A stretch of DNA of 31,303 bases from Thoreauomyces humboldtii (taxonomy: Eukaryota > Chytridiomycota > Chytridiomycetes > Spizellomycetales > Powellomycetaceae): positions 1 to 31,303 of the forward strand of contig JADGJA010000194.1 in assembly GCA_027596035.1 (NCBI GenBank). Reading direction: 5' to 3'. Shown here piece by piece: positions 4,671-29,558 of this stretch. Numbering within the stretch: the first letter of the stretch is position 1; each line of letters starts with the position of its first letter. Made by a program: the position numbers and the translations under genes. The notes below the pieces were generated by a model. That model was given only the letters and a program-made list of their open reading frames with translations, made no database searches and was not told the origin of the DNA.

Positions 4671-5436
4671 TCAAGAGCGGCTTGGAGGGTAGTTACGGAA
4701 TGTGACCGACTTACGCGGCTTGGTCACGGCAGAGATGGCATGCGTCCACTTGTAGCGTGCGTCTCCCGTGAAGACGTAGACTGAACGCGGAGAAAGCCGC
4801 AAGCAAACGGGCGGTGTGGAAGTGGGATTGCCCACGCGACGCATTGCGAGCTGACATTCCGACTGCAGTGAAACGCCCAACACCCAACTCCCAAAGCTGG
4901 GGTCATCCACGTGCGCACCCAGAATTGCTCTTGCTGAGTAGTGAACGACAAGGCCGTTGACGTTGGAGAGACCGGGTACCAGATGACCGACGGCCTGCAC
5001 TTCGGTTGGCAAGACGATACGCGAGACGCAAGCTGCCCACAACTGTTGCATCCAGGCAGGCGAACCCCGATAGGGTTGCGTCCAGTAGTATCTATGAGGG
5101 GAATACTGAAATATGAATCGTAAAGTTTGCAAAGTGAATGACGGGCCAGAGAGAGTAATCGTAACGGCATTCTCACTCAATTCAATACCGGAGCGCCGGA
5201 CTTCAGCTCGTCCGGTTCGCGATCAATGTCAGCCAACAGCTTCGTCTCTCCGGCAGCGGTTAAGACATCCTCGATGAAGAACAGCCCTGGGCAATCCGGG
5301 CACACGGCCGCGCGGGTGACTTGATGGCACCTGTAGTTACGGCACGGGAGCGCGAGCGTGTGTTGAAAGCGGGTGCATCTTGGTCTTTGTCGGACGTCGC
5401 GGTTTTGCGTTTGAGGCGGCCGAGGGTAGACTTCAT
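4671..5436 (-). CDS. AlkB-like 2-oxoglutarate/Fe(II) dioxygenase
   Basis: Three exons on the minus strand (5436-5331, 5286-5189, 5105-4671) join in phase across introns of 44 and 83 bp, giving 212 residues. The AlkB-type jelly-roll signature is clear. GLFFIEDVL opens the fold (36-44); AHVDDPSFG carries the HxD iron ligands (H133, D135); RSVYVFTGDARYKWTHAI supplies the distal histidine H190; RKSVTFR holds the 2-oxoglutarate-binding arginines (R199, R205). The family oxidatively demethylates nucleic acids or proteins; which substrate cannot be told here. About 210 residues is compact, near the ALKBH6/ALKBH7 size range. The first intron and the GTATTG donor of the second are my inference; the catalytic exon is solid. 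It lies between two relic clusters on the same strand as the PARP gene, about 7.5 kb away. Confidence 0.82.
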
Positions 5437-10180: not shown

Positions 10181-11288
10181 TCAAGAACGCTTTCTGATCT
10201 TCTCGTCGTTTATGGCTTGTCTCTTCTGGATCTCCTTAGGGACCTCATCCTTCAAGCGCGGGGCTCGGCTTCCCGCTCGTGCGTCCCGAATATTCTGGTC
10301 CTGTCAGCCGCGCTCGAAACACCACTTGCGAGCCGGAGGAATCGGCGCTCCTGGTCGTGGAACGCGGGACACGGATCTCCGAGAAGTTCTGTCAGCTCGA
10401 TCGCGCTCTTAAGACTCTGCGGCCCGGCAATCAGACAGCGACCATGCACGCCGTGTGGCAAAGCAACGGGTTTTTCGTAGGCTTCCAGTATAAAGGAAAG
10501 CAAGACTCCGCGAGTACATGGTTTGGATGTGCTCAAAGCCTTACTCACAATGGATCGCAGGAATTCCCAATAAAGCACGACACTAGCTCGTTCGGGTTGA
10601 CGAGCTTGTCGTTATGGAAATAAAAAATCAGGGGAGATCTGCGAGGTCCCAACCACGCGTATCTTCCCTGGCGGATTTCTGCTCTCTTGTTTGCTACATC
10701 TTCGGTGGGGATATCCTCCCTCAAGTACGCGAAGCCGCTCAGGGCGTGCGATGTGGCGTGCCGGATCGAGACTTTCGACGGCTGCTTCTTCTGAGTCTTG
10801 AGAGGAGAAGGCGATCGCTGTCGGCGCTCTGGCGATCCTGAGCTGCTGCCAGCAGTGGTACTGGTGCTAGAGGTGCTGCTTGCTGTTGCCGTTGACGCGA
10901 CCGAGGTTGACGAAGGGGATTGTGCAGGAACCCCAAGATTGGAAACCAAGAAACCCCTCTTGACTGAACCTGCCTCCGCAGGCAGACACAAGCTCTCATC
11001 CTTGAGAACCCGAGACTCTTGAATAGATCTCGTATTTGGACATACCCGAGACTTTCCCTCACGAAAAACGATGTACAAGAGATCTCGATGCTGTACGCTT
11101 CTGGTGTGAATGTAACGAACCATATCAGACGATGTGACGCGCCTGTCCTTTCGGCTTCTTCCTGAACAGTCGGTGGTTCCACTAAACTTGTTGCTCCCAG
11201 TTTTCTCCATGGCTCCCCTGGAATCGCGCACCAACTCGATCCACTCTACGTGGCCGCTGACCTGCGACCGTCTAATTCCTCTAATCAT
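10181..11288 (-). pseudogene. Copy C of the SR-rich coiled-coil family, the most complete copy
   Basis: ATG at 11288. The first block (11288-10549) is open for 246 codons. It has a basic N-terminus, a Ser/Thr-rich linker (TSVASTATASSTSSTSTTAG), SPERRQRSPSPLKTQKKQ, the IRHATSHALSGFAYLREDI block and NPNELVSCFIGN, ending at a GTGAGTAAG donor (10548). Downstream, SAIELTELLGDPCPAFHDQ (about 10400-10340) resumes the family core, but the frame must shift to read the tail IRDARAGSRAPRLKDE and EKIRKRS, with a stop at 10181-10183. The acceptor site does not restore phase as far as I can tell. It may be a gene with an unrecognised intron or a recent pseudogene. It lies immediately upstream of copy B in the same orientation. 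No known domain is recognised. Confidence 0.55.
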
Positions 11289-11369
11289 CTCCTTCTCGTT
11301 CTACGCACATGATCAGCAACGTTGTCAAAATAAGAAAAGCAGAATACGGGATACGCGTGACCGGAGCGT

Positions 11370-12227
11370 CTAGATGTAATCGGGATCGTCCGAGCCCACA
11401 TCATCCTGCCGCACGTGGTGGAACGCGTTGTCGTAAGAAGCCTTCCAAGCGGGTCGTTCCTCGTCGAGAGGCAGAGCTTTGAACGCGCGAGCCGGATCCT
11501 CCTTCAGTGCCGCGTGGTATCGAGATATGCACCATGCGTAGCAGAGCTGACGTGGGGGAGAGCAGAGCGATGGAGAAGGAAGGGCGTCAGGGTGTTGCTT
11601 GACCGAATGTCAAGTGTTCGTGCGTGGAGCACTCACGTAGAGGACCGAGTATAGCAGATGACCGACCCCACCTGCCAAAGGGACGACCCAATCCTGGTCG
11701 CATCGTCGCCACGGCTGGTTGTGAGGGCCCTCATGGTGCGGTAGAGTGAGGAGCCAGAAGCAGGGTAGGGCAGACACGATGACCATGGGACAGCAGATCA
11801 GGGTCCAAACTTTTGTCCACTCGACGCCACGGACACTTCGCTGTTCGAGGGAAAGCAGTCAGCACATGCAAAGAGTGCCTTACCTCCGTGCTCCTCCAGG
11901 GATACGAAGAACGAACCGAGCGGACGGCGAGTTGTTGGAGGAGCATGGGCACTACCGACCCAATGAGCTCGGCCCACCAACGGCGATCAAAGATTGGCAA
12001 ATCAAAGGGCGCCTTAACGTAGAGATGCATGATGATGGTGGATGCCTGAGATGAGTGCAAGTGAAGGTGGACCGCTAGTCGGTGAGCTACGTCGAGGTGT
12101 GGTGGAGTCCATTTGGGACACCCACAATGAAGATTGTCTGCAAGACGAGGATCCGGCGACGGAGTGGAGATGCCGCGTTGAGGTCCTTGAGCTCCTCGAT
12201 GATGTACGCTACGACTGCATCCATCAT
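11370..12227 (-). CDS. Multi-pass membrane protein of unknown family
   Basis: Four exons (12227-12126, 12045-11884, 11840-11637, 11546-11370) join with all three junctions in phase 0 across introns of 80, 43 and 90 bp, giving 214 residues. Four hydrophobic segments are visible: about residues 26-44 (ILVLQTIFIASTIIMHLYV), 61-75, 98-120 (VWTLICCPMVIVSALPCFWL) and 140-165. The N-terminus is acidic/helical; the C-terminal 50 residues are charged and end in DDPDYI. The start is the ATG pair at 12227/12224 in context ATCACCATGATG; no in-frame upstream ATG was found. I do not recognise the family. It lies 666 bp downstream of the PARP gene on the same strand. The 43-bp intron is very short, but its removal is needed to keep the frame open. 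Confidence 0.65.
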
Positions 12228-12893: not shown

Positions 12894-15800
12894 CTAATCG
12901 TCATCGTCGGTCTCCTCAGACGTGTCATCTAGGGTCTCTACAGCCGGAAGAGTATACCAGATCGTCCAAGCGATGACTTTCGCGACCTGATGCTCCCCGA
13001 CCGTCGTGGCAGCTGAGACGTCCATGGCGTTCGGGTCCGTCGACGGGAGAGCAGCAAGGGTTACGGTGGCGTCCTCGCTAGGCTGGTCCGCGGTCGGTTC
13101 GGGCAGGTTGATGTGAGTGGAGAGGAGCAGACGCGAAGAGTCCAGTCCAGCTCGACCGTCGGTCGCCGCGCGTTCGGAGGTGCGGATCTCGAGTTTCTTG
13201 TCTTTTGCCAACCACCGGATCGTTGGGAAGTAGCGGTTCGGGACGGGGGATGCGGGCAACGAGGCGGTTGCCAGGCATGCATCTTGGGAGGTCAGAACGC
13301 TAAAACAAAGAAAAGCGGTCGGCTATCGGGCTCCTCATCGTGGCGATCGGAACGGGCACGGCTTCTCACCTCACGGTCTTCAGCGCGCCGTCAAGGCGAA
13401 CGCGAACATCTGTCGCAGCTCCCGCTTGGAGATGCAGCTCGACGGTACCCATCGACGGTTCGACGGCAAGCTCGATCGACCAGTTCTTGTGGACGTTCAA
13501 CTTTTTGTTGGCGACGACCGAACCTCCCGTCGGCAATCGGATGCCCTCGGCCTCGCAAACGGCTCCACCCGTGACATCCAAGCTCTGCTTCGCATAGGCA
13601 AAGACCAGGTTGTCACCAGGCTGACGAAGGTTCGGCGCGATGTGGTTGAACGTCCTGGCGTGGGCCGCGGTCTTTTGGTTCCGACACTCGCGACCGTACC
13701 AGCAGTTCGGACGGTCCCGGACGGCGACGGGAAGGTCGTTTCGGTGAGTTACCATGTAGGCGTAGAGAGCCTCGGAACAGACAATGTCGCTGCAAGTGTT
13801 GCAGATCTCGCTGTGCATTTGAAGCTCAGTCGCGCACACGAAGCGAGATTCTATCGCGGTGATGGACGATCGGGAGTGTCAGTAGACGTAGGACACGAAA
13901 AGGACCAGGTTTTCCCATAAGTCAAGGACGGAAATCGTACTCACCGTAAAGGTTCTCGCTCACATAGCGATCCACAAACTCCTTCCATATCCTTTCAACA
14001 GAGTCACCACGCGCATGGATCAACGCCGCGCAAGCCGCCTTCTCGAAGGCATTCTTACTCAAAGCCCCTTCAAAAACAACTCCAGCCGACTCATCCTCCG
14101 CAAACTTCTGGTCCCGATAGTCCGCTACTGTTTTCAAGAATCCATGCTTTTCGCACAGAATACAGGTACTGGCGTCCCGAACGAGAACGACGTAACGGAT
14201 GCGGACCTGAGCCGCATCGTAAACAATGTACTCGTCGTACCTCAGCGATCGCCTGATTGGATGTCCTGACGAGTCTTTGCGAAGGACATGCTCTTGGACG
14301 GGTCCTTGGGGAACGACGACGCCGTCCGGATATGACAGGGATCTGGAGGGTCCCGTCATGCCGAGACCAATGGTGCAGATGGATTCGCCGGGGGCCTTGT
14401 CCATGTTCTGCGACTGTTCCAGCTCGTTTGGTTTCTCCCCGACGGCCACGTCGCAGAGCAGGAGACATGAGTAACTGGGGAACTGCGCTGGGGAAACGGC
14501 GTAACTTATGCTCTTGGCAAACATGGAACCGAAGTACAGTCCGCGACCGAACATGGATCCGTTCGCAGCGCAAGGGGTGATACGCAAGCCCTGATGCAGG
14601 ATCCCCAGAAAATTGCTCGATCTGAAAGCCGGTCGGTTTAGCCCAGCGTCTTTCACAGGCTGCGAGCACCGCCACGTTAGAGCTACCTCGACCCATGCCA
14701 CAGCAACTTTGTCGGCTCCTTTTCGAAGGGTTGGAAACGTTCATGTTCGCCATCTTTCTTTACGGCGAAAAGATGCACAATCTCGTGTTTTGACGACTCG
14801 CGAGTATCGTGTAGATACTCCTCCACGATCTGGAATTCATCTCCCTCACGATCGTTGACATGTCGGAACTCGCAACGCACCGCGTCCACGAGGTAATCGG
14901 TGGGATGAACCGTGTCCTTTTTCGAGTGAGCCGCAAGGAGCAGCATGCTCGCCGAGTCGACGTACTGCAGGTCCGCGAGCTACAGAAGATATCGACCGAA
15001 GAGGGTTTAAGAGCACGCAGGTCAAAGTATGCGATGATAAGACGCGTACCCTTTGCATCTCCCTGGTTAGCTGAAACCGGTTGGTGATGGGTCGCAGGCC
15101 ACAGTGCCTATCACCCGTCGATGGCATGATGGAATAGTATTGGCTGCTGAGTTTGACGAGTGTCTCGTTCATGCTCTTCAAAGCCTTCACGTCGGGGATC
15201 GGAGCCAGATCGAGGACCCCCTTCTCCTCAAGGCGTTCCTTGATCTCCTTCAGGATTGCATTGGCTGCTTGTACGGTCTTGCGGTCTACGTTCCCGATCT
15301 CGAGGTCAAGGTGGGAGTCGTGCACAGCGGTTTCCAGAGCAGGGAGGTCCGAGACAAGCCGGAAGAAGTCGGTCACGGCCTGAGCCTGGACAGGGCGAGG
15401 GCTCCCGTCCTTCAAGTGGTTGAAGGCGGGAGTGGGCACCGGAACGTGATCTCTGATCTTCTTGGAAACGGACCAGTAGCGGCCGGGTTTTCTCTCGTAG
15501 CTCTCTGCCCCAGCTGGCGTGGGGTCCCAGACGTTCCCGGACTTGGTCTTAAAGATCTTGGTAAACTCCAGGATAGCTTCTTGGGCTGTGGGGAACGGCG
15601 TGCGTTGATGCATGCCGTCTTCGCCCAATCCTCCGAATCGCGTGAGCAGCACGTATGAGTTGCGCAGTCTATCGTGAGCCAGCTGCATCTTGTAAAACGA
15701 GTTGGACCCGTGATGACCACGACTGAGATCCGTCTTCGTCATCATCACGTCGTAGGGTGTATCATGCTCCTCGTCGAAGACGACTTCGGCGGTCAGGCTC

Positions 15801-18800
15801 GTAAGTCCGATGTAAGGGTCGAGCTTGCAGGCCGCGTGACGTTCCTGCTTCTCCAGTTCCGCAGGTGAGAGTCCGAGGTCCTTTGCCCGCTGCACTTGCA
15901 TGGCCGCTTCCTTGATTTTGGCGGCTGCCACGATGTCGCTTCGAGCCATATCAGCATCCGCTTCCACGTCCACTCTCATGATGGGAACCCTATCAACGTC
16001 CATGGAATTGCGACCCGCTTCCGGATTCTTCGCTACAGCATCCTTCGATCCCAGCTCTAGAAGCTTTTTGTACATGACTTTCGACTTGTGGGTATACGCG
16101 AGATCGATCGCTCGTAAGCCTTCAAAGGAATCATCAGTGAGACCGACCGCAAAATCTTCGAGACAAACAGGATAACAGACCTTTCTTATTCGCAACCTCA
16201 AGGTCCAGTCCCCGATCCACCGCAAGAGCCAGCATCGCCACGTTTTCGTAAAGTCCGATGGGTCGGGGCGCCACGATCAGGTGCGCAAGTGTCTGACCAT
16301 CCGAGTTTCTCGCGTTCAGGTAATCCAAGCTCAACGTCCTCGCATTGCTCAGGATCCGTTTCAAGCAATCTGTGCGATCCAAAATCGCACAGAGCATGAG
16401 CGAGGTGTTGTCGGACGGATCGTGACAGGTGGAGAGAACCGTAATATCTGCTCCTTTGAGAAGTACAGCCTGATAAACGCGAATATTTAGCACGAAGAGA
16501 AAGAGCAGGTCAACAAAGTATGACGACGGTGCATACATCGAGGAAGGTAGGGTCACACTGGAGGATAGCGTGGTCAACGACCGTCTGTCCAGACTCCTCG
16601 TCGATGCGGTTGACATCGACATTTACTTCGGCGAACCTTTCGACGCATTTAGCCCTTTCCTGGTGCGATCGACAACGGTACAAGGCCATTTGGAATGGCG
16701 TGCGGTGGTCTGTCGGGTGCGGGAGGTTCACGTTTCCTTTATATTTGATCAGAACCTAGGTGCAGTCATTGAGGACATCAAACGATCAGCCAACCAAAAC
16801 TCCGTTTGCGAGAAAACCTTAAAAGTCTTACATCAAAAGCCGGGTTCTTATCTTTGACAGTCTGCAATGGAGAAAATCCAGAATGTGGATGCAGGATGTT
16901 CGGATCCGCTCCCGCCTTGAGCAGCATCTCCAAAATGCCTTTGCCCTCTTTCGGCACATCGCACGTCAAGACGGCAAAGATCGGTGGAACGAGGTCGGTA
17001 TCTTTTTCCTCCTGGAAAGCGGGCAGGTTGAGATCGGCACCAGCTTCCAAAAGGGCCCGTATTTTTGCAGTGTCCTTTTTTTGCAGAGCGACGACGAGCG
17101 GCGTCCGTCTCAGACCGTCTGTTGTGACCTTGACGTCGTTGAGCGCGACTCCCTTTGCGATGAGACTCTACGAATCTCGCACTGGTCAGTGCCAATTTGT
17201 CCGATGCAGCAGCTTGTCATCACGTACCTGGAGGACACGAACGTCCGAGGCCATGGCCGCATAGTGGGCCAAGGTGGGCCCTTCGAACTCGGTCTCGGAA
17301 GGAAGCTGGAACGACTGCTCCAAGATCATTTGAATGACCTCCTTGTTTCCGTCGGCCATGGCATAACTCAATGCCGTGCGGCCGTGATTGTCCTTGACGA
17401 CCCATTCCTTGCCGTCCACGACCTGGACCAGGATCCTGACGATCTCTTCGTGTCCGTACATGGCAGCGTAGTGCAAGGCGGCGCGTCCTTGGGAATCGGT
17501 ACGGAGAGGATCCAGACCCAGGCTGCGTATGGCATCGTATATCTCGACGCTGTATTCTACCCATTCCTGCGCGTTGAGAGGTCGGTGGTCCACTATAACG
17601 TGAAGAAGGGTTTGACAGCTGCTGGAGGTGGTGGCAAGAAGCTCCTGTCGGGACGCGCGAGTGATGAGCAGGACAGCGAGATGGAATTTGCCTGATGTTC
17701 AACCATAGTTAGCGAAAATCTTAATTCTGCGCACGACCTTTCCAGGGGTTTTCCTCACCGGTAGTCAAAGCATCGCTGATAGCGTTAAGCACATCGACGC
17801 CCTTTTCCATGATCATGTAAGCCAAGGACATGAAACCCTTGCTCAAGGTATATCTGAACACGCTCGCCTCGACTCCCGAACTGGGAACAACGGACCCGTC
17901 CGTCCCGGCTCCCGTCTTCGCGAGCATGACGGCGAAGTCGATGTGCTCATGAAGCAGACCGACGTCGATCGGTCTGTTCGTGTCGCGATCGGGTCGGTCC
18001 ACAACGGCACCCTTGTTGATGAGATAGGAGCTGCTCGTGAACGCTCCCACGCGTCCAGCGTAGTGTAAGGGTGTTCGACCGAACCTAGGGAAGCACACGT
18101 AGCGCGAAGACAGCATGAGTCTCCAAAACACTGGATCGTCAGACCCTCACGAACACGAAGCTTTCTCACTTGTCAGGAAGGTCAGGTTGGATGTTTGGCA
18201 CGGACAGGAGATAGCTGACGATCTCGATCGGATCCGCCTTCGCATTGGAGACTCGCTTCTCCCACCGGTTCGTGAACCACTCCTTTCCGGAGTCGCCTCG
18301 AAACTCTACAGCCTCGTCCTCCTTCGCGTTCCTCCGCCTCGCTTCCGCCTTCTTCCTCTCAGGTGCCAGGATCCATCCCTCCTCGTCTCGGCCATCGACC
18401 AACAGACTCTCCGCTATCTTTTTAAGAGCCAAGATCGCCGCCTCTCGTTTCTTCTCGGCCGCGTTGAAAGACGCCTGGAGGTCGGCCTGGACCTCAGATA
18501 TGTGCATGGCGGGGATCTGTAAGATGTCGACAAAGGCGATGTGGAGGGGAGTTCGTCCTTGGACGTCCACCGCGTTGATGGGAGCGCCTGCCGCAAGCAA
18601 GAGTCGTTCGAGACGGAGGGAGGTGTTGACGGCCCCTTTTGAATCCTCGATCGCGAGGTGCAGCGGTGTTGATAGGTTCTTTTCGTGAAAACCAATACCG
18701 ATGAGTTCCGGAACACATCGCACAAACCCCGAAATCATCACAAGAAACAACGCATAGCCCGTACCTTATCTTTGACGTCCGTTCTAGCACCTGCATCCAG

Positions 18801-21800
18801 GAGCATCTTGACCATCTTCCAATCGTTCCTCTTGACTGCGACATGAAGAGCCCACCGTCCATCCCCGTCCCCAGTCATAACATTGACATCGGACCTCTTC
18901 TCACCGCGCAATAGAGCTTCGATCACGTCCCTCTGTCCATTCTGGACCGCCTTGACCAGCGGCGTCCCCTCGTCACCTTTCTCCCCGCTCCTCAACTCCC
19001 TGTCCGCACCGGCAGCCAACAACAACTCCACCACGTCCACGAATCCCTTTGCAGCCGCCAAGTGAAGCGCAGCCGACCCCGTCGAATCCCTATGATCCAC
19101 ATTGCAGTCCCGTCCGGTCTCGAGGATCGCCACCGCCGTCTCGCTGGTATCCCGTTCCAGGGCCAACAGGAGTGCCGTCTTCCTTCGCCAGGTGCTGGTG
19201 ACGACGGCGAGATCGGACGTTCGGACGTCGAGGATCAGACGGACGAGATCCATGTTCTTCGTCAGCACGGCTCTCATAACGACGGTTTCGTTCGTCTTCG
19301 CGTTTCGGACGTTGACGTCGGCTCCCAGGTCCAGGAGGATCCTGACGGCCGCCAGGTTCGATCTCCTCACGAATGCGTTCAGGGCGCGATCTCCTTGCTC
19401 CTCGACCATCGAGTCGACCCTTTGGAGAGGACAGGCCGTCAGGAACGCCTGCAGGAGACTGATCGATATCCGGGGTGGTCCCGTGTCGTTATCTGGGATC
19501 GTCTCGTCCTCCGCGGTTGGCCGCAAGGTCAGATGCGACAGCTGTTGGAGTGGCGACAGCCCATCGGGAATCGCCGGGATCGTGGGATCAACTTTCGCGT
19601 CCAGCAACAGCTTGATGCAAGCCTCCCAGCGAGTTCGGGGGGGTGTGAATTGCAGGGTGAAGGCGTTACATGTCTTTGGGAATGCAGCCGGTGGGAGTTC
19701 GAGGGCAAGGTGAAGTGGCGTTGTGGAAACCCTCGATTCCGGCGTCGACGTCGACCCGCATCCCTTGTCCAAAAGAAATTTCAAAAGGGTGGGATCCTGC
19801 CATTTCGCAGCGTAATGTAGTGCACTCCATCCGGTATGGACAGGTTGGTCGTCGCCAGGTTTGTAACCGTCAGGCAACGTAACCTTTCCCGAGACGTCGG
19901 CACCGAAATCGTTCACGAGGATGTTGACGAAGGCAATCTGCGCGAAATACATTTAGAGCGTCAAAACAGCGGGCTCGTCAGTCTCCGACCCCTGAAGCTG
20001 ATAGCCAAAGAAAGCAACGCCCATCGCTTCACTCACCGTCGCATCCCAAGTGAGGTCCATCTCGACAATCTTCGTCCCGCTGACCGTGGAGTTCCCAAAA
20101 GTGCCACCCCCGGTTCCAAACACATGCGTACTCGCTGAGAGGAAGGTATCCCTCTCCTGGATCTGCCTCTCACCCGCCTTTTTGACGACACCGACCACGC
20201 CCCTGAAGCCTTGATCGTCCGGTTCCTCCACGACCTCCTTCAACTCATCCTTATCGGCATCCTTCAAGATCTCGCACATCTTCCAGATCTCCGCCAGTTT
20301 CGGTTCCGCCTTGGTTCTCAGACGCTCTCGGGTGGGATGGTCGCCGTGGGCTCGAAGGTCGCGGCTCCAGTTGGGCACGACGCAGGATGATTCGATCTCG
20401 GCGATCTCGGTGGAGAGGATCGAGACGACGTTGGAGCCCTTCAGACTGGCTTTGCGGCTCATGAGGGCGACGGCTTGGACAAAGTTCTTCTTGGCGAGGG
20501 CGATCTGGAGCGGGGTTTCCTCGGATTTGGTCTTTGCGTTCAGATCCGAGCCTGTGATAAGAACGATGTGGAAACGTCATCGAGAAATCAGTGATGAAAC
20601 CGAGGGGTTTAACATTGAGGACGCACAAGCTTACCAGCATCCATTAGAAGGTTCCCCAGCTCCCTCCAAGCCGCTTCGATCTCTCGCTTGCGCTCCTCTT
20701 CAGAACGTGGCACGCCCTGTTCGACCCCTTGCTGCGCGATCAGGTCCGTGGTAGCCCACCTATGCAACGCCGTGCGACCTTCCTGATCCTTGATCCCCGG
20801 ATCCGCACCTCGGGTCAAGAGGGCCCTCGCCTTGTTCAACATCCTCTCGCTTTCGTTCGGTGTCTGGGGACACGTCGTGGTGAGATTGTGGAGCATGGTC
20901 GCGCCCTGGGGATCCAAGGTGTTGACGTCGACCTCCGGGACGGCTAGGAGCTGGTCCACGGAATGTCCCTTCAGGTCCGTTATGGAGATGGGGGTGGACT
21001 GCCAACAATTTCGGGCGTTTGGGTCGGCTCCGAGTACAAGGAGGAGGTGGACGAGCGAGCGCCATCCGAAGGCGGCAGCGTAGTGGAGAGCGGTATTGTT
21101 GGAAGTGTCGGATGCTTCTAAGTTGGAGCCGAGGAGAAGGAGGTGCTTGCAGACCTCAAAGTGCCCTGCATGGATCGGAAATGGTGTGCAAGCAGTGGGA
21201 TGAGTGACTATGGAGATGATCGTTACTAGGTTTCGTCTTTACCATTCTTGGCAGCATGGATCAGCGGCACCCTTCCGAACCTATCTCTAGGCTGCAACTC
21301 GGCCTTCTTTTCCAAAAGGAAAGCCACGACGTCCAAGTGTCCTCTCATGGCCGCAAGATGCAAGGGAGCAAACTTTGTCTTCGTAGCAGGGGCATCGATG
21401 GCCGCGCCGGCCAAGACCAGGACGCGGACGGCCTCGAGATGACCATGAAACGCCGCAAAGTGCAGAGCGCGACTCTTGTCCTTCAACATGGTGTGATCCG
21501 GATCCATCCCGTTCGCTTTCAGGAGGACCTCCAGGTTCCTCGCTCGTCCGTACCTCGCGGCGAGGAGGAGCGGGGTGTGCCGAAGCTTGTCTTCCTTCGA
21601 GCAATCCATCCCCCGGGCGAGGAGGAACTCGAGACCATCGGGCTCGCTGCATGCGGCGGCGAAGTGGAGGACGGTTCGACCGCGTTCGTCGGGTTCGGTG
21701 GCTTCCGACGGGTCAAGTTTCTCGATGAGCTCTTGGAGGAACGTCGGGGATGGGTTGATGGCTGCCAATCTTGATGAGGCAGGTGGGAGGTCAGAATAAA

Positions 21801-23606
21801 TAACGGAAAACGCAGTGAGCGGATGCTTACTGCAAGGGAGTGATCGCCGAGTTCCCCGTCGCTTTCTTCAGGATCTGGTTCTTGCGGTACGTGGGAAGCG
21901 AACCTCCATCTACCGGCTTCGGGTCGAGATCAGCTTGTGTGATCTTTATCGTCCATCACGCCCAAAACCTACATTCATGACAGCATTATGCAGCTCGTTG
22001 AACCCATACCCATCATTCGCCGTCAAACTCTTGACCAAATGCCGACACATTCCGATCCTTCCAGCGGCAGCGACCTCATATATACCATACTGTCCGATGA
22101 TGCCCGTGATGCCACGATGCCTGGTGTGCCAGTAATCAAAGGTCTCGATATGGATGTCGGTAGCCGTGAGGACGGTGGTGACGCTCATCTGTCCTCTGGG
22201 ATGATGACCGTGTTCCTCCCTCCTCTTCGGAGAACAGGTGAAGATCTCGTCCGCCAGGCCGCACAGGAAGGCGTTGTTGCCCTCCCTGTTTCCTCTGGAC
22301 TCGTTGAGTGCCGCAATGGCGTGGCCGAAGGTCCGATTGCTGACGTGGCCCGTGTCGCTGGCGGCCATGGTCTTCCACGCGACGCGTCGTGGGTTCCGGT
22401 CGAAGTCGTCGTACAGGAGCTTGAGAGCGGGTACGTCGTTGAGGACGAGGGCTCGGAAGACTGCCGTGTCGTGGGGAACGTCCGGTTTGCAGGAGTGGTC
22501 GGGAGGTCCGATCTTCTGGCGCTCGTCGAGGACTGCGTTCAGGAGGTCATCGGATGGGATTTCGAGGGCTCTGCTGAACTCGTTGGTGGAGCAACCGGGA
22601 CAGCAGGTCGTGTCAGGAGTGTCTTGGTCGTCGGGTAAGATGGAGAGCGTGTAAGTCTCGGACGGGATGAGGGCACGAGCAGCGATTCGCGTCTTGATAG
22701 CCGCCTTCTCGGCGGCGAGGATGGATGCCTTGGTGACTCGGACCGGTTTCACGACCTTGACCTTTGCCATGCGTTTCCTCGTCTTGTTCAAGGGCTCGCC
22801 GTCCTCGTTCACATCCATAGCATCCTTCGCCTCGGCCTCCTCGTCCACGTCGATCTTGACGACGGTGACGCGCCGCTTCTTCCTGGCCGGTTTGGCATCG
22901 TTATCGGGCGTGTCCTCGTAGGAACGGGACACGCGACCCTTGGCCTTGGAGGCTCGAAACTGGGCGATGAGGTCGGCTTCGACCTCCTCCTCGGGTACCC
23001 ACTCGTTGGCGTCGTCCGAGAAGCCTTCCCACTTGACGAGGAAGAGCTTTCGACCTCCTTTGGTCTTTTGTGCCAGGACGCGTTCGGCCCAGATGGTGTC
23101 GCGGTCGCTGTCCTCGTCCGAATCGTCGTCGTTGTCATCGTCAACGTCACCGTCAACGTCAGTGCCATCGTCTTGGTCTTCTCCGTCGTCTCCATCTTCC
23201 TGTACCTCTTCCATGTCTTCGCCTTGGCTCTGCGCTTCATCGTCGCTGTTCACAAGGCCGCCACCTCGGTCGGCGTTACCGCTGGGACCTGGCGAGTCGT
23301 TGTCGCTGACGACGGGACGCTTTCTCTTCCCCTTCCTTGATGAGGAAGGTTTTGGCAACGCAGGCGTGGCAACGCGTGGGGTCGGTGTGGCGGCGATGTC
23401 GATCCTGTTCCTCTTTCGCGAGACAGGGGTGGCGGTGGGTCTCGAAGTGACTGCCGGTGATGCCGATGTTGCCTTTGGAGTCAGCACGCTCTTGAGTCGA
23501 GTCGACTGAAGTGACGGGTGCGGTTAGCGCGAGCGGCCAGTGGGTAAGATGGTTCGCAATGTGGGGTTACCCTGCGCCTATCGCTACCGTCATTGTCGTT
23601 GCCCAT
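12894..23606 (-). CDS. Giant chromodomain-ankyrin-WGR-PARP-PBZ protein (3156 aa, 18 exons)
   Basis: Exons: 23606-23571, 23505-21973, 21916-21831, 21769-21243, 21165-20635, 20551-20037, 19937-18765, 18678-18170, 18084-17759, 17691-17228, 17167-16832, 16755-16537, 16469-16181, 16119-15050, 14979-14687, 14621-13945, 13850-13370, 13299-12894. All 17 GT-AG introns (56-99 bp) keep phase; the CDS is 9471 bp. Domains: acidic tract (about 100-148); chromodomain (150-198, FLVKWEGFSDDANEWVPEEE); about 35 ankyrin repeats (about 485-2206, for example FAPLHLAAMRGHLDVVAFLL); WGR-type domain (about 2280-2397, motif altered to FGG); PARP regulatory domain (about 2421-2538); PARP catalytic domain with H2633 (LLWHGSR), Y2665 (MFGRGLYF) and E2766 (YDEYIVYD); PBZ finger (2908-2932); unknown C-terminal region; DDDD end. 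Family knowledge predicts NAD+-dependent poly(ADP-ribosyl)ation. Chromatin targeting is inferred. The ATG is in CCACCATGGG. The third intron's acceptor is the least certain junction. Confidence 0.93.
13639..13713 (-). other. PBZ (PAR-binding zinc finger)-coding segment of the PARP gene
   Basis: It codes for RPNCWYGRECRNQ, four further residues, then HARTFNHI. This fits the PBZ consensus [KR]xxCx[FY]GxxCxbbxxxxHxxx[FY]xH at every defined position, with C2911, C2917, H2925 and H2931 as zinc ligands. PBZ fingers bind poly(ADP-ribose) in APLF and CHFR. A preceding His/Cys cluster (HSEICNTCSDIVC, 2874-2886) may form a second zinc site. Confidence 0.88.
22948..23094 (-). other. Chromodomain-coding segment of the PARP gene
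   Basis: It codes for WAERVLAQKTKGGRKLFLVK followed by WEGFSDDANEWVPEEEVE and an AQFRA helix. This matches the canonical chromodomain pattern (VEKVL...LVKWxGF...NxWxPxxxL). Of the three HP1 aromatic-cage positions, W and F in KWEGF are kept, while the first appears shifted (I then W). Methyl-lysine binding is plausible but unproven. Confidence 0.85.
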
Positions 23607-24413
23607 GGTGGTGGGAGGTACAGTAGATCTGCTCCTCGCCCCGTGTCCCTCGTTGAGACGAAGGGGATTGGAACTTTGGAGATGTGAGATGTGCGAGATG
23701 GGCGGCGCAACGCGTTTGTGGGAAGGACAGCGGCGGCGACATGAGCGAGAGAGACGCCCAAAGAGAGAGAAGCCGCACCGCACGGTTCACTCTCGCACAA
23801 GAGACACACACACACGACTTGAGCAAGCCACGCACGCACGCACCACCGGCAGCCCTCTGTTGGCGATCCCCCTCGTTGTCTGACAAGTGGTGTTTATAAC
23901 TTTTTGAGTTTCTGGGTTTCTTCAAGCAGGACGACATCTGGTCTTTTTTGCATTGATGGCAGGGGGCTCATGTCCTTCCCACCGCGCGACTGGCTGGCTG
24001 TATCGATACATTGTGTGCCGGGAGACAGGACCCGGAGACGGTGCAGGACCTGAACATTCGTGCTAGGGTCGCTGTTGGCTTTCGTTCCGTCCTCGGCCCA
24101 TCTCCTCAGGTATCGAAAAGACCTTTACAGAAGGTCCGAAGATGTTGATGGTCGCAAAAAGGGAATCGAAATGGCAGGGAGGGACAGAGCAGAGAGAACT
24201 TGGGGGTTCTTTAGGTTCTTCCAGTTGAAAGATGTGTACATGTACTTCAGGCGACACGTTTTGCCACCATTCGATATGTTGCTCGTCGAACCGCCATGGA
24301 CAGTGCGACCGTTGGATCGAGATGCTCTCATTCAGATTCAAAAAAAGAAAGCAAGAAAAGGCAAGAAGGGTGGTGGGGGTCCATCATCCGAATCCTCGAC
24401 CCCCATCCCTCGT
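23607..24413. other. PARP-gene upstream region with CA/CGCA microsatellites
   Basis: This 807-bp gap holds the PARP promoter and 5' UTR and the 3' flank of the small gene on its right. ACACACACACAC (about 23806-23817) and CGCACGCACGCAC (about 23831-23843) tracts lie in the presumed 5' UTR. No independent gene is supported; frames here are low complexity. Confidence 0.5.
23894..23899 (-). promoter_or_regulatory. Possible TATA box for the PARP gene
   Basis: TTATAA (minus strand reads GTTATAAACA) lies about 288 bp upstream of the ATG at 23606. The distance would imply a long 5' UTR. It is a weak, position-only call. Confidence 0.25.
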
Positions 24414-28256: not shown

Positions 28257-29558
28257 ATGCCCACCACCATCCTAGTATACGGACTCTCCAGCGTCGCGAC
28301 CCTCAGGGTGCACGACGCCACAGACGAGCAGCCCATGACAATCTCAGACCTCCGAGCTCACATCAAGACCTTCCTCGCCACCCTCCTGGCATCCGCGAAA
28401 GCCGACGCCCCCTCCATAGTCTACGACTTTGAGCTGGCGGCCGGAGAACGCGAGCTGGACGTAGGAACGGACGCATCGCGGCCCGTGTCCTACTTCCGAG
28501 TCTTTTCCACCAGCTTCGTCCTGCGCGTGCAGACTCGAAGGCGAGGTGACGTCTTCTCCGTCGCCGTCAAAACACTTTATGGAAGACAGATGACCTGCGA
28601 TGTCGACACTCTCATGACGGTCAAACAGCTCAAGCATGCGATCAGGTGGGAGGAGGGCATGTCCGAGGATATCCAGCGCATCATCCATGGTGGGAAGCAG
28701 CTGGAAGATTGGTGTAGCCTTTCCGACTACTGCATCACCGATCAAGCGGTCCTGCAGTTGGTACTCAGACTCCGCGGCGGCGGGGGTCCCGGTGTTGAAT
28801 TCGTCGACGTAGGAAACAAGGCCGGACCTGAAAGGATCGGATGGGCCAAGACGGCGCCCGCGTGGTGTGTGGTAGAAAAGGGGATGATCTTGCGCGGCAA
28901 ATGCACGAACTCGTCTTGCAAGGCATACAAGCACACGGTACGGCCCATATCCCCTCCCTTGTTCTCACATGATCTCGACCGACGTGGTTTCTGATCTATC
29001 GCGACCTCTGTGCAGGTCTACATCAACCTCGGGCTCGGAGAATACAATCCTGCCTTCGATTTCCACCACAGTGTATGTCCCACGTGTCATGATGTCGTGG
29101 ACGCAAAGGACTGCGGATTCTCTAAATGCGACTACCGATACTTCGGAATCCGTCGTCGCAAAACCTCAGACCAAGCTCCTCCCACTCCCGAATTATCGGC
29201 CTGGAAGACCGTGACGGACGCCGACGCGTTCCAGCTCTTTCGATCCACTCGTCTCGGAACCGTCGTCTGGTCCCAGTTGCTCTTCCAGACCCGACGTTCG
29301 ACCGATGAAAAGTCGACAACCGCCAGGTGCATGATCTGTCGAATGGACGTGAACGAGGAAGTGAGTCAGGAGCGGAGTCTTCCGTGCAGGCATCGGTTCC
29401 ACGCGACTTGCGTGGCGCCGTGGATCGTGGAGGGGAAGGGATGTCCCCTGTGCTGTCCGCCTGCGGATGCCATCGTGATCCCGTCCTCCGACCCGCGAAA
29501 GTGGATGGTGAAGATTCGTAGGCATGAAAGCACATCGGTGGGCGGTTGCGTAGCGTAG
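28257..29558 (+). CDS. Ubiquitin-like domain / zinc-binding / RING-H2 fusion, putative E3 ligase
   Basis: Two exons (28257-28937, 29016-29558; 78-bp intron, phase 0) give 407 residues. An N-terminal about 95-residue part may be a degenerate beta-grasp. Residues 99-175 match ubiquitin closely (VKTLYG, GGKQLEDWCSLSDY, LQLVLRLRGG). Positions equivalent to K6, K27 and K48 and the L8/I44/V70 patch are kept; K11, K29, K33 and K63 are replaced. A middle Cys-rich segment follows (GKCTNSSCKAY, CPTCHDVVDAKDCGFSKCDY), typical of a fungal/protist family with ubiquitin domains. The C-terminal RING-H2 ligands are C332, C335, C351, H353, H356, C359, C370 and C373. RING-H2 proteins act as E3 ubiquitin ligases. 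LRGG is followed by GGPG, so cleavage by a deubiquitinase is possible but unproven. Start: CACAATGCCC with a CT-rich leader. Confidence 0.88.

Follow-up and report, generated by a model that had tools for sequence, protein, structure and literature searches.

The locus described here raises the question of whether a single fungal gene can encode a chromodomain, a long ankyrin scaffold, an enzyme that makes poly(ADP-ribose) (PAR) and a domain that reads it, and of what such a protein would do. The gene lies on contig JADGJA010000194.1 of Thoreauomyces humboldtii, a soil chytrid of the Spizellomycetales, of which 31,303 nucleotides were analysed (the window). As judged from its orthologues, the fusion into one protein is real and conserved. 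The explanation that we favour, and hold to be fairly probable as a whole, is that the product is a Clade 1A-type PAR polymerase (PARP) of early-diverging fungi in which a CHFR-like CRD-PBZ unit has been joined after the catalytic domain, giving a scaffolded writer of PAR that would be retained by its own reader.

The gene runs from ATG to stop on the minus strand (23606..12894), as do all its domains given below. Splicing of its 18 exons keeps the reading frame throughout and yields 3156 codons, the only stop being the terminal one; the translation is letter-for-letter identical to the GenBank prediction HKX48_002982 from Thoreauomyces humboldtii. Since that entry is also a prediction, the independent evidence for the gene model comes from the orthologues. 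The final exon model is no independent test either, because four of its splice sites were set by eye, and one intron of the preceding scripted model was dropped. Splice scripts given the start codon of the original prediction, which had been made from the letters of the window, reach the same stop and most of the junctions, but not all; the scripted models lose the catalytic histidine or the likely N-terminus.

Five orthologues, one each from Powellomyces and Rhizophlyctis and three from Geranomyces, can be aligned with it at 35-46% identity over lengths of 2811-2971 residues. The alignment is unbroken, with gaps of at most two residues, across junctions 2-6 and 8-16. These take in the chromodomain/ankyrin boundary (exons 2/3) and the PARP/PBZ boundary (exons 16/17), the two places that the original prediction had given as examples of where a break would refute it. 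Junction 7 coincides with a gap in one Geranomyces model, and junction 1 is within a poorly conserved end. Junction 17 falls in the tail that follows the PBZ finger (residues 2935-3156, 12897..13632, with an intron inside). This tail, about 220 residues long, is either missing from the models of Powellomyces and Rhizophlyctis or different there; of the six proteins compared, those of Geranomyces align with its first part. The phase-consistent fusion of 18 exons is borne out by the colinearity of the orthologues over the internal junctions. A promoter and terminator scan with a bacterial model found nothing.

It might be argued that two or three adjacent genes have been wrongly merged, as both the exon model and the GenBank entry are predictions. 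This is very improbable: orthologues of other genera are colinear across the chromodomain/ankyrin, ankyrin/WGR and PARP/CRD-PBZ boundaries, and the second Rhizophlyctis protein and that of Endogone keep the identical domain order. A two-gene artefact was rejected on this colinearity.

The predicted presence of a chromodomain, ankyrins, WGR, PARP catalytic domain and PBZ on one protein is confirmed by Pfam matches and by the orthologue alignments. A Pfam scan of the whole protein gives 13 matches at E<=0.1. Those over the cut-off are Chromo (38.2 bits, cut-off 25.1), WGR (56.6, cut-off 22), PARP_reg (46.9, cut-off 26.8), PARP (162.4, cut-off 26.7) and five ankyrin families.

Relatives and descent of the architecture

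A protein search gave 1303 matches, of which 120 were listed; the candidates sharing most words were scored, and the counts that follow are counts among the matches listed. Together with the matches of another search, these lists gave a family of 31 proteins, each having a PARP and a WGR domain; the other 100 ankyrin proteins on the lists were used as controls. At least eight proteins carry the order chromodomain, ankyrins, WGR, PARP and CRD-PBZ. They come from Thoreauomyces, Powellomyces, Geranomyces (three), Rhizophlyctis rosea (two) and the mucoromycote Endogone. The claim that the architecture is unique falls with the at least seven other database proteins that share it. Many published orthologues had been named as evidence against the original prediction; orthologues have indeed been deposited, but mostly as hypothetical proteins. 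Ankyrins, WGR, PARP and CRD occur together in at least 20 fungal proteins, the eight included, with a full PBZ finger after the catalytic domain in 17 of the 20. By these domain assignments, the design is common to relatives in two fungal phyla.

The chromodomain is not detected in the relatives from Obelidium, Entophlyctis, Siphonaria, Physocladia, Podochytrium, Chytriomyces, Quaeritorhiza, Dinochytrium, Cladochytrium and Apophysomyces, nor in two from Entomophthora. The Cladochytrium protein has a SAP domain in its place. The absence of the chromodomain may be an annotation gap in Dinochytrium (a partial record), in Quaeritorhiza (1808 residues) and in the two Entomophthora models, whose N-termini are short. 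The Apophysomyces protein has a sub-threshold match of 17.9 bits against the cut-off of 25.1, and was not counted. The chromodomain profile was built from seven of the eight chromodomain proteins, so that Endogone is the only held-out match.

In a tree of the region from WGR to the ADP-ribosyltransferase (ART) domain of the 31 proteins, all 20 fungal rows group together as a single clade (100/99). Another clade (96/94) unites the seven chytrid proteins with a chromodomain, and Endogone stands apart from it. The distribution of the chromodomain therefore needs two changes: it may have been gained twice, or gained early and then lost in some lines. An early gain appears more likely from the sequences, because the N-terminal position is shared and because Endogone and Rhizophlyctis are 39% identical over 98% of the region from the chromodomain to the first ankyrins. 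Five of the eight chromodomain proteins are from Geranomyces and Rhizophlyctis, and thus the eight do not represent independent events. Two of the 11 other Ank-WGR-PARPs are named (Owenia and Pelomyxa); the remaining nine are called non-fungal from their place in the tree.

The closest described systems are PARPs with ankyrins. Clade 1A, with ankyrins followed by WGR, PRD and PARP, was drawn from Dictyostelium, fungi and Paramecium in the available text of Citarelli 2010 (PMC2964712), and the "Clade 1-ank" PARPs include PME-5 and Dictyostelium ADPRT3 in that of Perina 2014 (PMC4245714). The present protein follows the same succession of domains, from ankyrins through WGR to the regulatory and catalytic domains. 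It differs from those descriptions in the CRD-PBZ after the catalytic domain, the chromodomain before the ankyrins and the loss of the WGR arginine. Judged by its domain layout, the protein is a PARP of the Clade 1A type to which a predicted PAR reader like that of CHFR and an accessory chromodomain have been added; the tree covers 31 proteins other than the original Clade 1A members. Tankyrases (Clade 4) share ankyrins and a PARP domain with it, whereas WGR and PARP_reg are present here; a tankyrase was rejected as there is no SAM domain among the 13 Pfam matches. PARP1-type zinc fingers, PADR1 and BRCT are likewise not among these matches.

PBZ fingers joined to PARPs are reported from Dictyostelium, Entamoeba, Capsaspora and the lancelet in the available parts of the same 2014 survey (PMC4245714). 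These proteins also have writer and PBZ on one chain, but they are not from Fungi, and a CRD is not mentioned in those parts. The survey states there that PBZ could not be found in Fungi; Batrachochytrium and Spizellomyces have no occurrence in its main text. The PBZ loci of the Thoreauomyces genome and the fingers of the present family would restore a PAR reader to early-diverging fungi. Among the papers listed by searches of open-access literature aimed at the combination, none describes a chromo-Ank-PARP or a fungal PARP-PBZ in its title or the beginning of its abstract, a scope that does not establish the protein as undescribed.

PAR writer, PAR reader and the WGR arginine

The catalytic domain (residues 2585-2783, 14180..14841) follows the regulatory, helical domain (residues 2428-2567, 14893..15382), and each has an intron inside. 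The His-Tyr-Glu triad is intact (His2633, Tyr2665, Glu2766), by which a dead PARP was rejected. Because the histidine motif served to anchor the alignment rows, finding it in each of them is no independent evidence.

What had been described as a PBZ finger forms the end of a larger CRD-PBZ unit of the CHFR type. The cysteine-rich domain (zf-CRD, residues 2789-2905, 13720..14164, with an intron inside) starts, as a Pfam match, six residues past the end of the PARP match. It is followed by the PBZ finger (residues 2908-2934, 13633..13713), which aligns with CHFR and has the C-C-H-H zinc ligands (C2911, C2917, H2925, H2931) and the CxYGxxC core. The PBZ score is 21.4 bits in the whole protein, below the cut-off of 22.7, and 29.3 bits in a six-frame search, above it; zf-CRD alone is below its cut-off in the Thoreauomyces protein. 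The unit is related to the C-terminus of CHFR, its predicted fold is of the CHFR type, and the solved CHFR structures bind ADP-ribose-type ligands. The structure alignments took in 18 of the 20 fungal CRD pieces in one case, with Quaeritorhiza and Cladochytrium (which lack PBZ) left out, and 13 of the 20 in the other. CHFR itself is an FHA-RING-CRD-PBZ ubiquitin ligase; FHA and RING are its own, neither being among the Pfam matches here, where a PARP catalytic domain is present instead. The claim of a PAR writer and a PAR reader on one chain holds for the intact triad and the CHFR-type CRD-PBZ, and the making and binding of PAR are predicted from them.

It is possible to describe how such a protein might work. 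The ankyrin array, by analogy, would gather substrates and partners, and the ART domain would build PAR on the gathered proteins or on itself. The CRD-PBZ unit would then hold the enzyme on the PAR chains, prolonging its stay and favouring further modification nearby. The chromodomain would be an accessory contact, again by analogy. Activation would depend less on broken DNA and more on the binding of a partner or of PAR.

The last point comes from the WGR domain (residues 2304-2382, 15518..15754), in which W-G-R is replaced by F-G-G. The arginine is lost in all 20 fungal rows, where Gly, Ala, Gln, Ser or Asp is found, and is kept in all 11 others; for one of these (jgi17), the tree alignment is blank where WGR falls, and the WGRVG is taken from a separate alignment. 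In PARP1, the WGR arginine is part of the relay from the DNA break to the active site. The loss of the arginine, together with this role, suggests that DNA breaks may matter less for activation, and the binding of partners or of PAR more. The tryptophan is Phe in five of the 20 fungal rows. It varies outside the fungal clade too, being Tyr in four of the 10 rows with letters, so the change from Trp to Phe alone says little. A whole clade without the arginine and with an intact catalytic domain is a natural test of WGR function.

These data bear on a more conventional explanation, in which the protein is a DNA-damage PARP of the usual PME-5/Clade 1A kind. DNA breaks, acting by way of WGR and the regulatory domain, would still trigger catalysis, and CRD-PBZ and chromodomain would aid recruitment only. 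Both WGR and PARP_reg are retained, many Clade 1 members act in DNA repair according to the available text of PMC2964712, and that of PMC4245714 suggests a DNA-damage role for PME-5. The explanation is nevertheless rather unlikely, given the arginine missing from every fungal member and kept in the 11 others, and given that the same fungus has a separate BRCT-WGR-PARP_reg-PARP gene (contig C617) that keeps WGRVG. On that contig, a PARG gene (C617:12039-12917) is found about 8.4 kb from this PARP gene (about 21346-23819).

The self-reinforcing PARylation of the original prediction is plausible, and the feedback could equally be negative. CRD-PBZ might be a brake that senses the PAR made by its own enzyme and stops synthesis, or it might hand over PAR-marked proteins. 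The available text of PMC4741567 describes the CHFR PBZ as interacting with PARylated PARP1, which stabilises CHFR, so that PAR reading feeds ubiquitin signalling; the six residues between the PARP and CRD matches are also near enough for direct feedback. We consider such a brake or hand-over unlikely. As writer and reader are on a single chain, the effect of reading on writing is directly testable.

Several observations weigh against the favoured explanation. Among 10 scanned fungal members, zf-CRD is over the Pfam cut-off in four, below it in four and unlisted in two, and PBZ is over it in two, below it in three and unlisted in five. The joint structure model of ART, CRD and PBZ is only moderately confident (pTM, the predicted template modelling score, 0.78), and PBZ is poorly predicted in it; the best 50 matches listed in a fold search with this model are filled by PARP1-3, and CHFR is not among them. 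The roles given to the ankyrins and the chromodomain rest on analogy.

A bolder version of the retained writer is offered tentatively. The protein may be a read-write machine for PAR, independent of DNA breaks, that writes PAR and binds it again through the CRD-PBZ on the same chain; in this way it would spread or sustain PARylation across partners on an ankyrin scaffold of about 1900 residues. Its logic would be like that of the chromodomain-plus-methyltransferase enzymes of heterochromatin. The design would then be ancestral to several fungal phyla, and the chromodomain would be old and lost or worn down in some lines.

Chromodomain and ankyrin scaffold

The chromodomain (residues 147-200, 22942..23103, within exon 2) matches CBX1 in the PDB (E=2.7e-9) and MPP8. 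It differs from HP1/MPP8-type chromodomains in the methyl-lysine cage, whose positions we take from those of HP1. The cage reads Ile-Trp-Phe in Thoreauomyces, with Ile instead of Tyr or Phe at the first position, so that two of the three aromatic residues remain. In the HP1 alignment, the first position is non-aromatic in all seven chytrid proteins: Ile in Thoreauomyces and Powellomyces, Ala or Val in Geranomyces, Thr or Met in Rhizophlyctis. In Endogone it is Trp, and the cage is complete. The second residue is still the Trp of KW/RW. At the third position there is Phe or Tyr, except in one Rhizophlyctis protein, which has Leu. One place along from the first position, an aromatic residue is present in four of the seven chytrid proteins, and a bulge there could bring this neighbour in. 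As the cage is incomplete in the chytrid proteins, the more likely ligand of the Thoreauomyces chromodomain is another protein or a nucleic acid, or else methyl-lysine bound weakly. The description of the protein as chromatin-docked is weakened by the non-aromatic first cage position and by the loss of the WGR arginine.

The ankyrin array (residues about 581-2215, 16019..21684, with introns inside) gives 13 Pfam Ank_2 stretches. An ankyrin model built from the family's own repeats is narrow. A single-repeat model gives 16 matches above 0 bits, one of them a stray weak match in the tail, and at most one in each of 50 shuffles. The array is long, as predicted, and the repeat number of about 35 is not settled. 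Ahead of it is a conserved lead-in (residues 310-580, 21685..22614, with introns inside), which, read by eye, may consist of degenerate ankyrins. It contains the motif NESRGNREGNNAF (residues 413-425, 22267-22305), found as such or as a variant in 17 of the 20 fungal proteins and in eight of the 11 other Ank-WGR-PARPs.

Other loci in the genome and the window

Four PBZ loci of the Thoreauomyces genome, the PARP gene included, score over the Pfam cut-off, and a fifth is below it. The further loci over the cut-off are C661:15117, C335:23094 and C151:13774, and Pfam lists PBZ only in each. By eye, those on C661 and C335 start with an FHA-like, APLF-like stretch, and that on C151 has a DNA-ligase-like motif. 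At the locus below the cut-off (C792:33228), RING and CRD are in the same frame as PBZ, in a CHFR-like arrangement.

Pieces of the PARP gene, 94% and 96% identical to it and in opposite orientations, are present at C691:2940-3072 and 10927-11577 among blocks resembling other parts of the window; they may come from a partial copy that was rearranged or may be due to the assembly. Another PARP-like catalytic fragment (30 bits) is at C454:1024-1209. In the window itself, one or more neighbouring genes on the plus strand (28257-29558) encode a ubiquitin-like domain, with a RING finger in the next frame, and a 2OG-Fe(II) oxygenase family match of 50 bits is on the minus strand (4671-5222). Direct repeat blocks at about 1230-1650, the translation of which, by eye, repeats VEASGPPDSILE...PSQRLWGTDIF, have related copies on C691.

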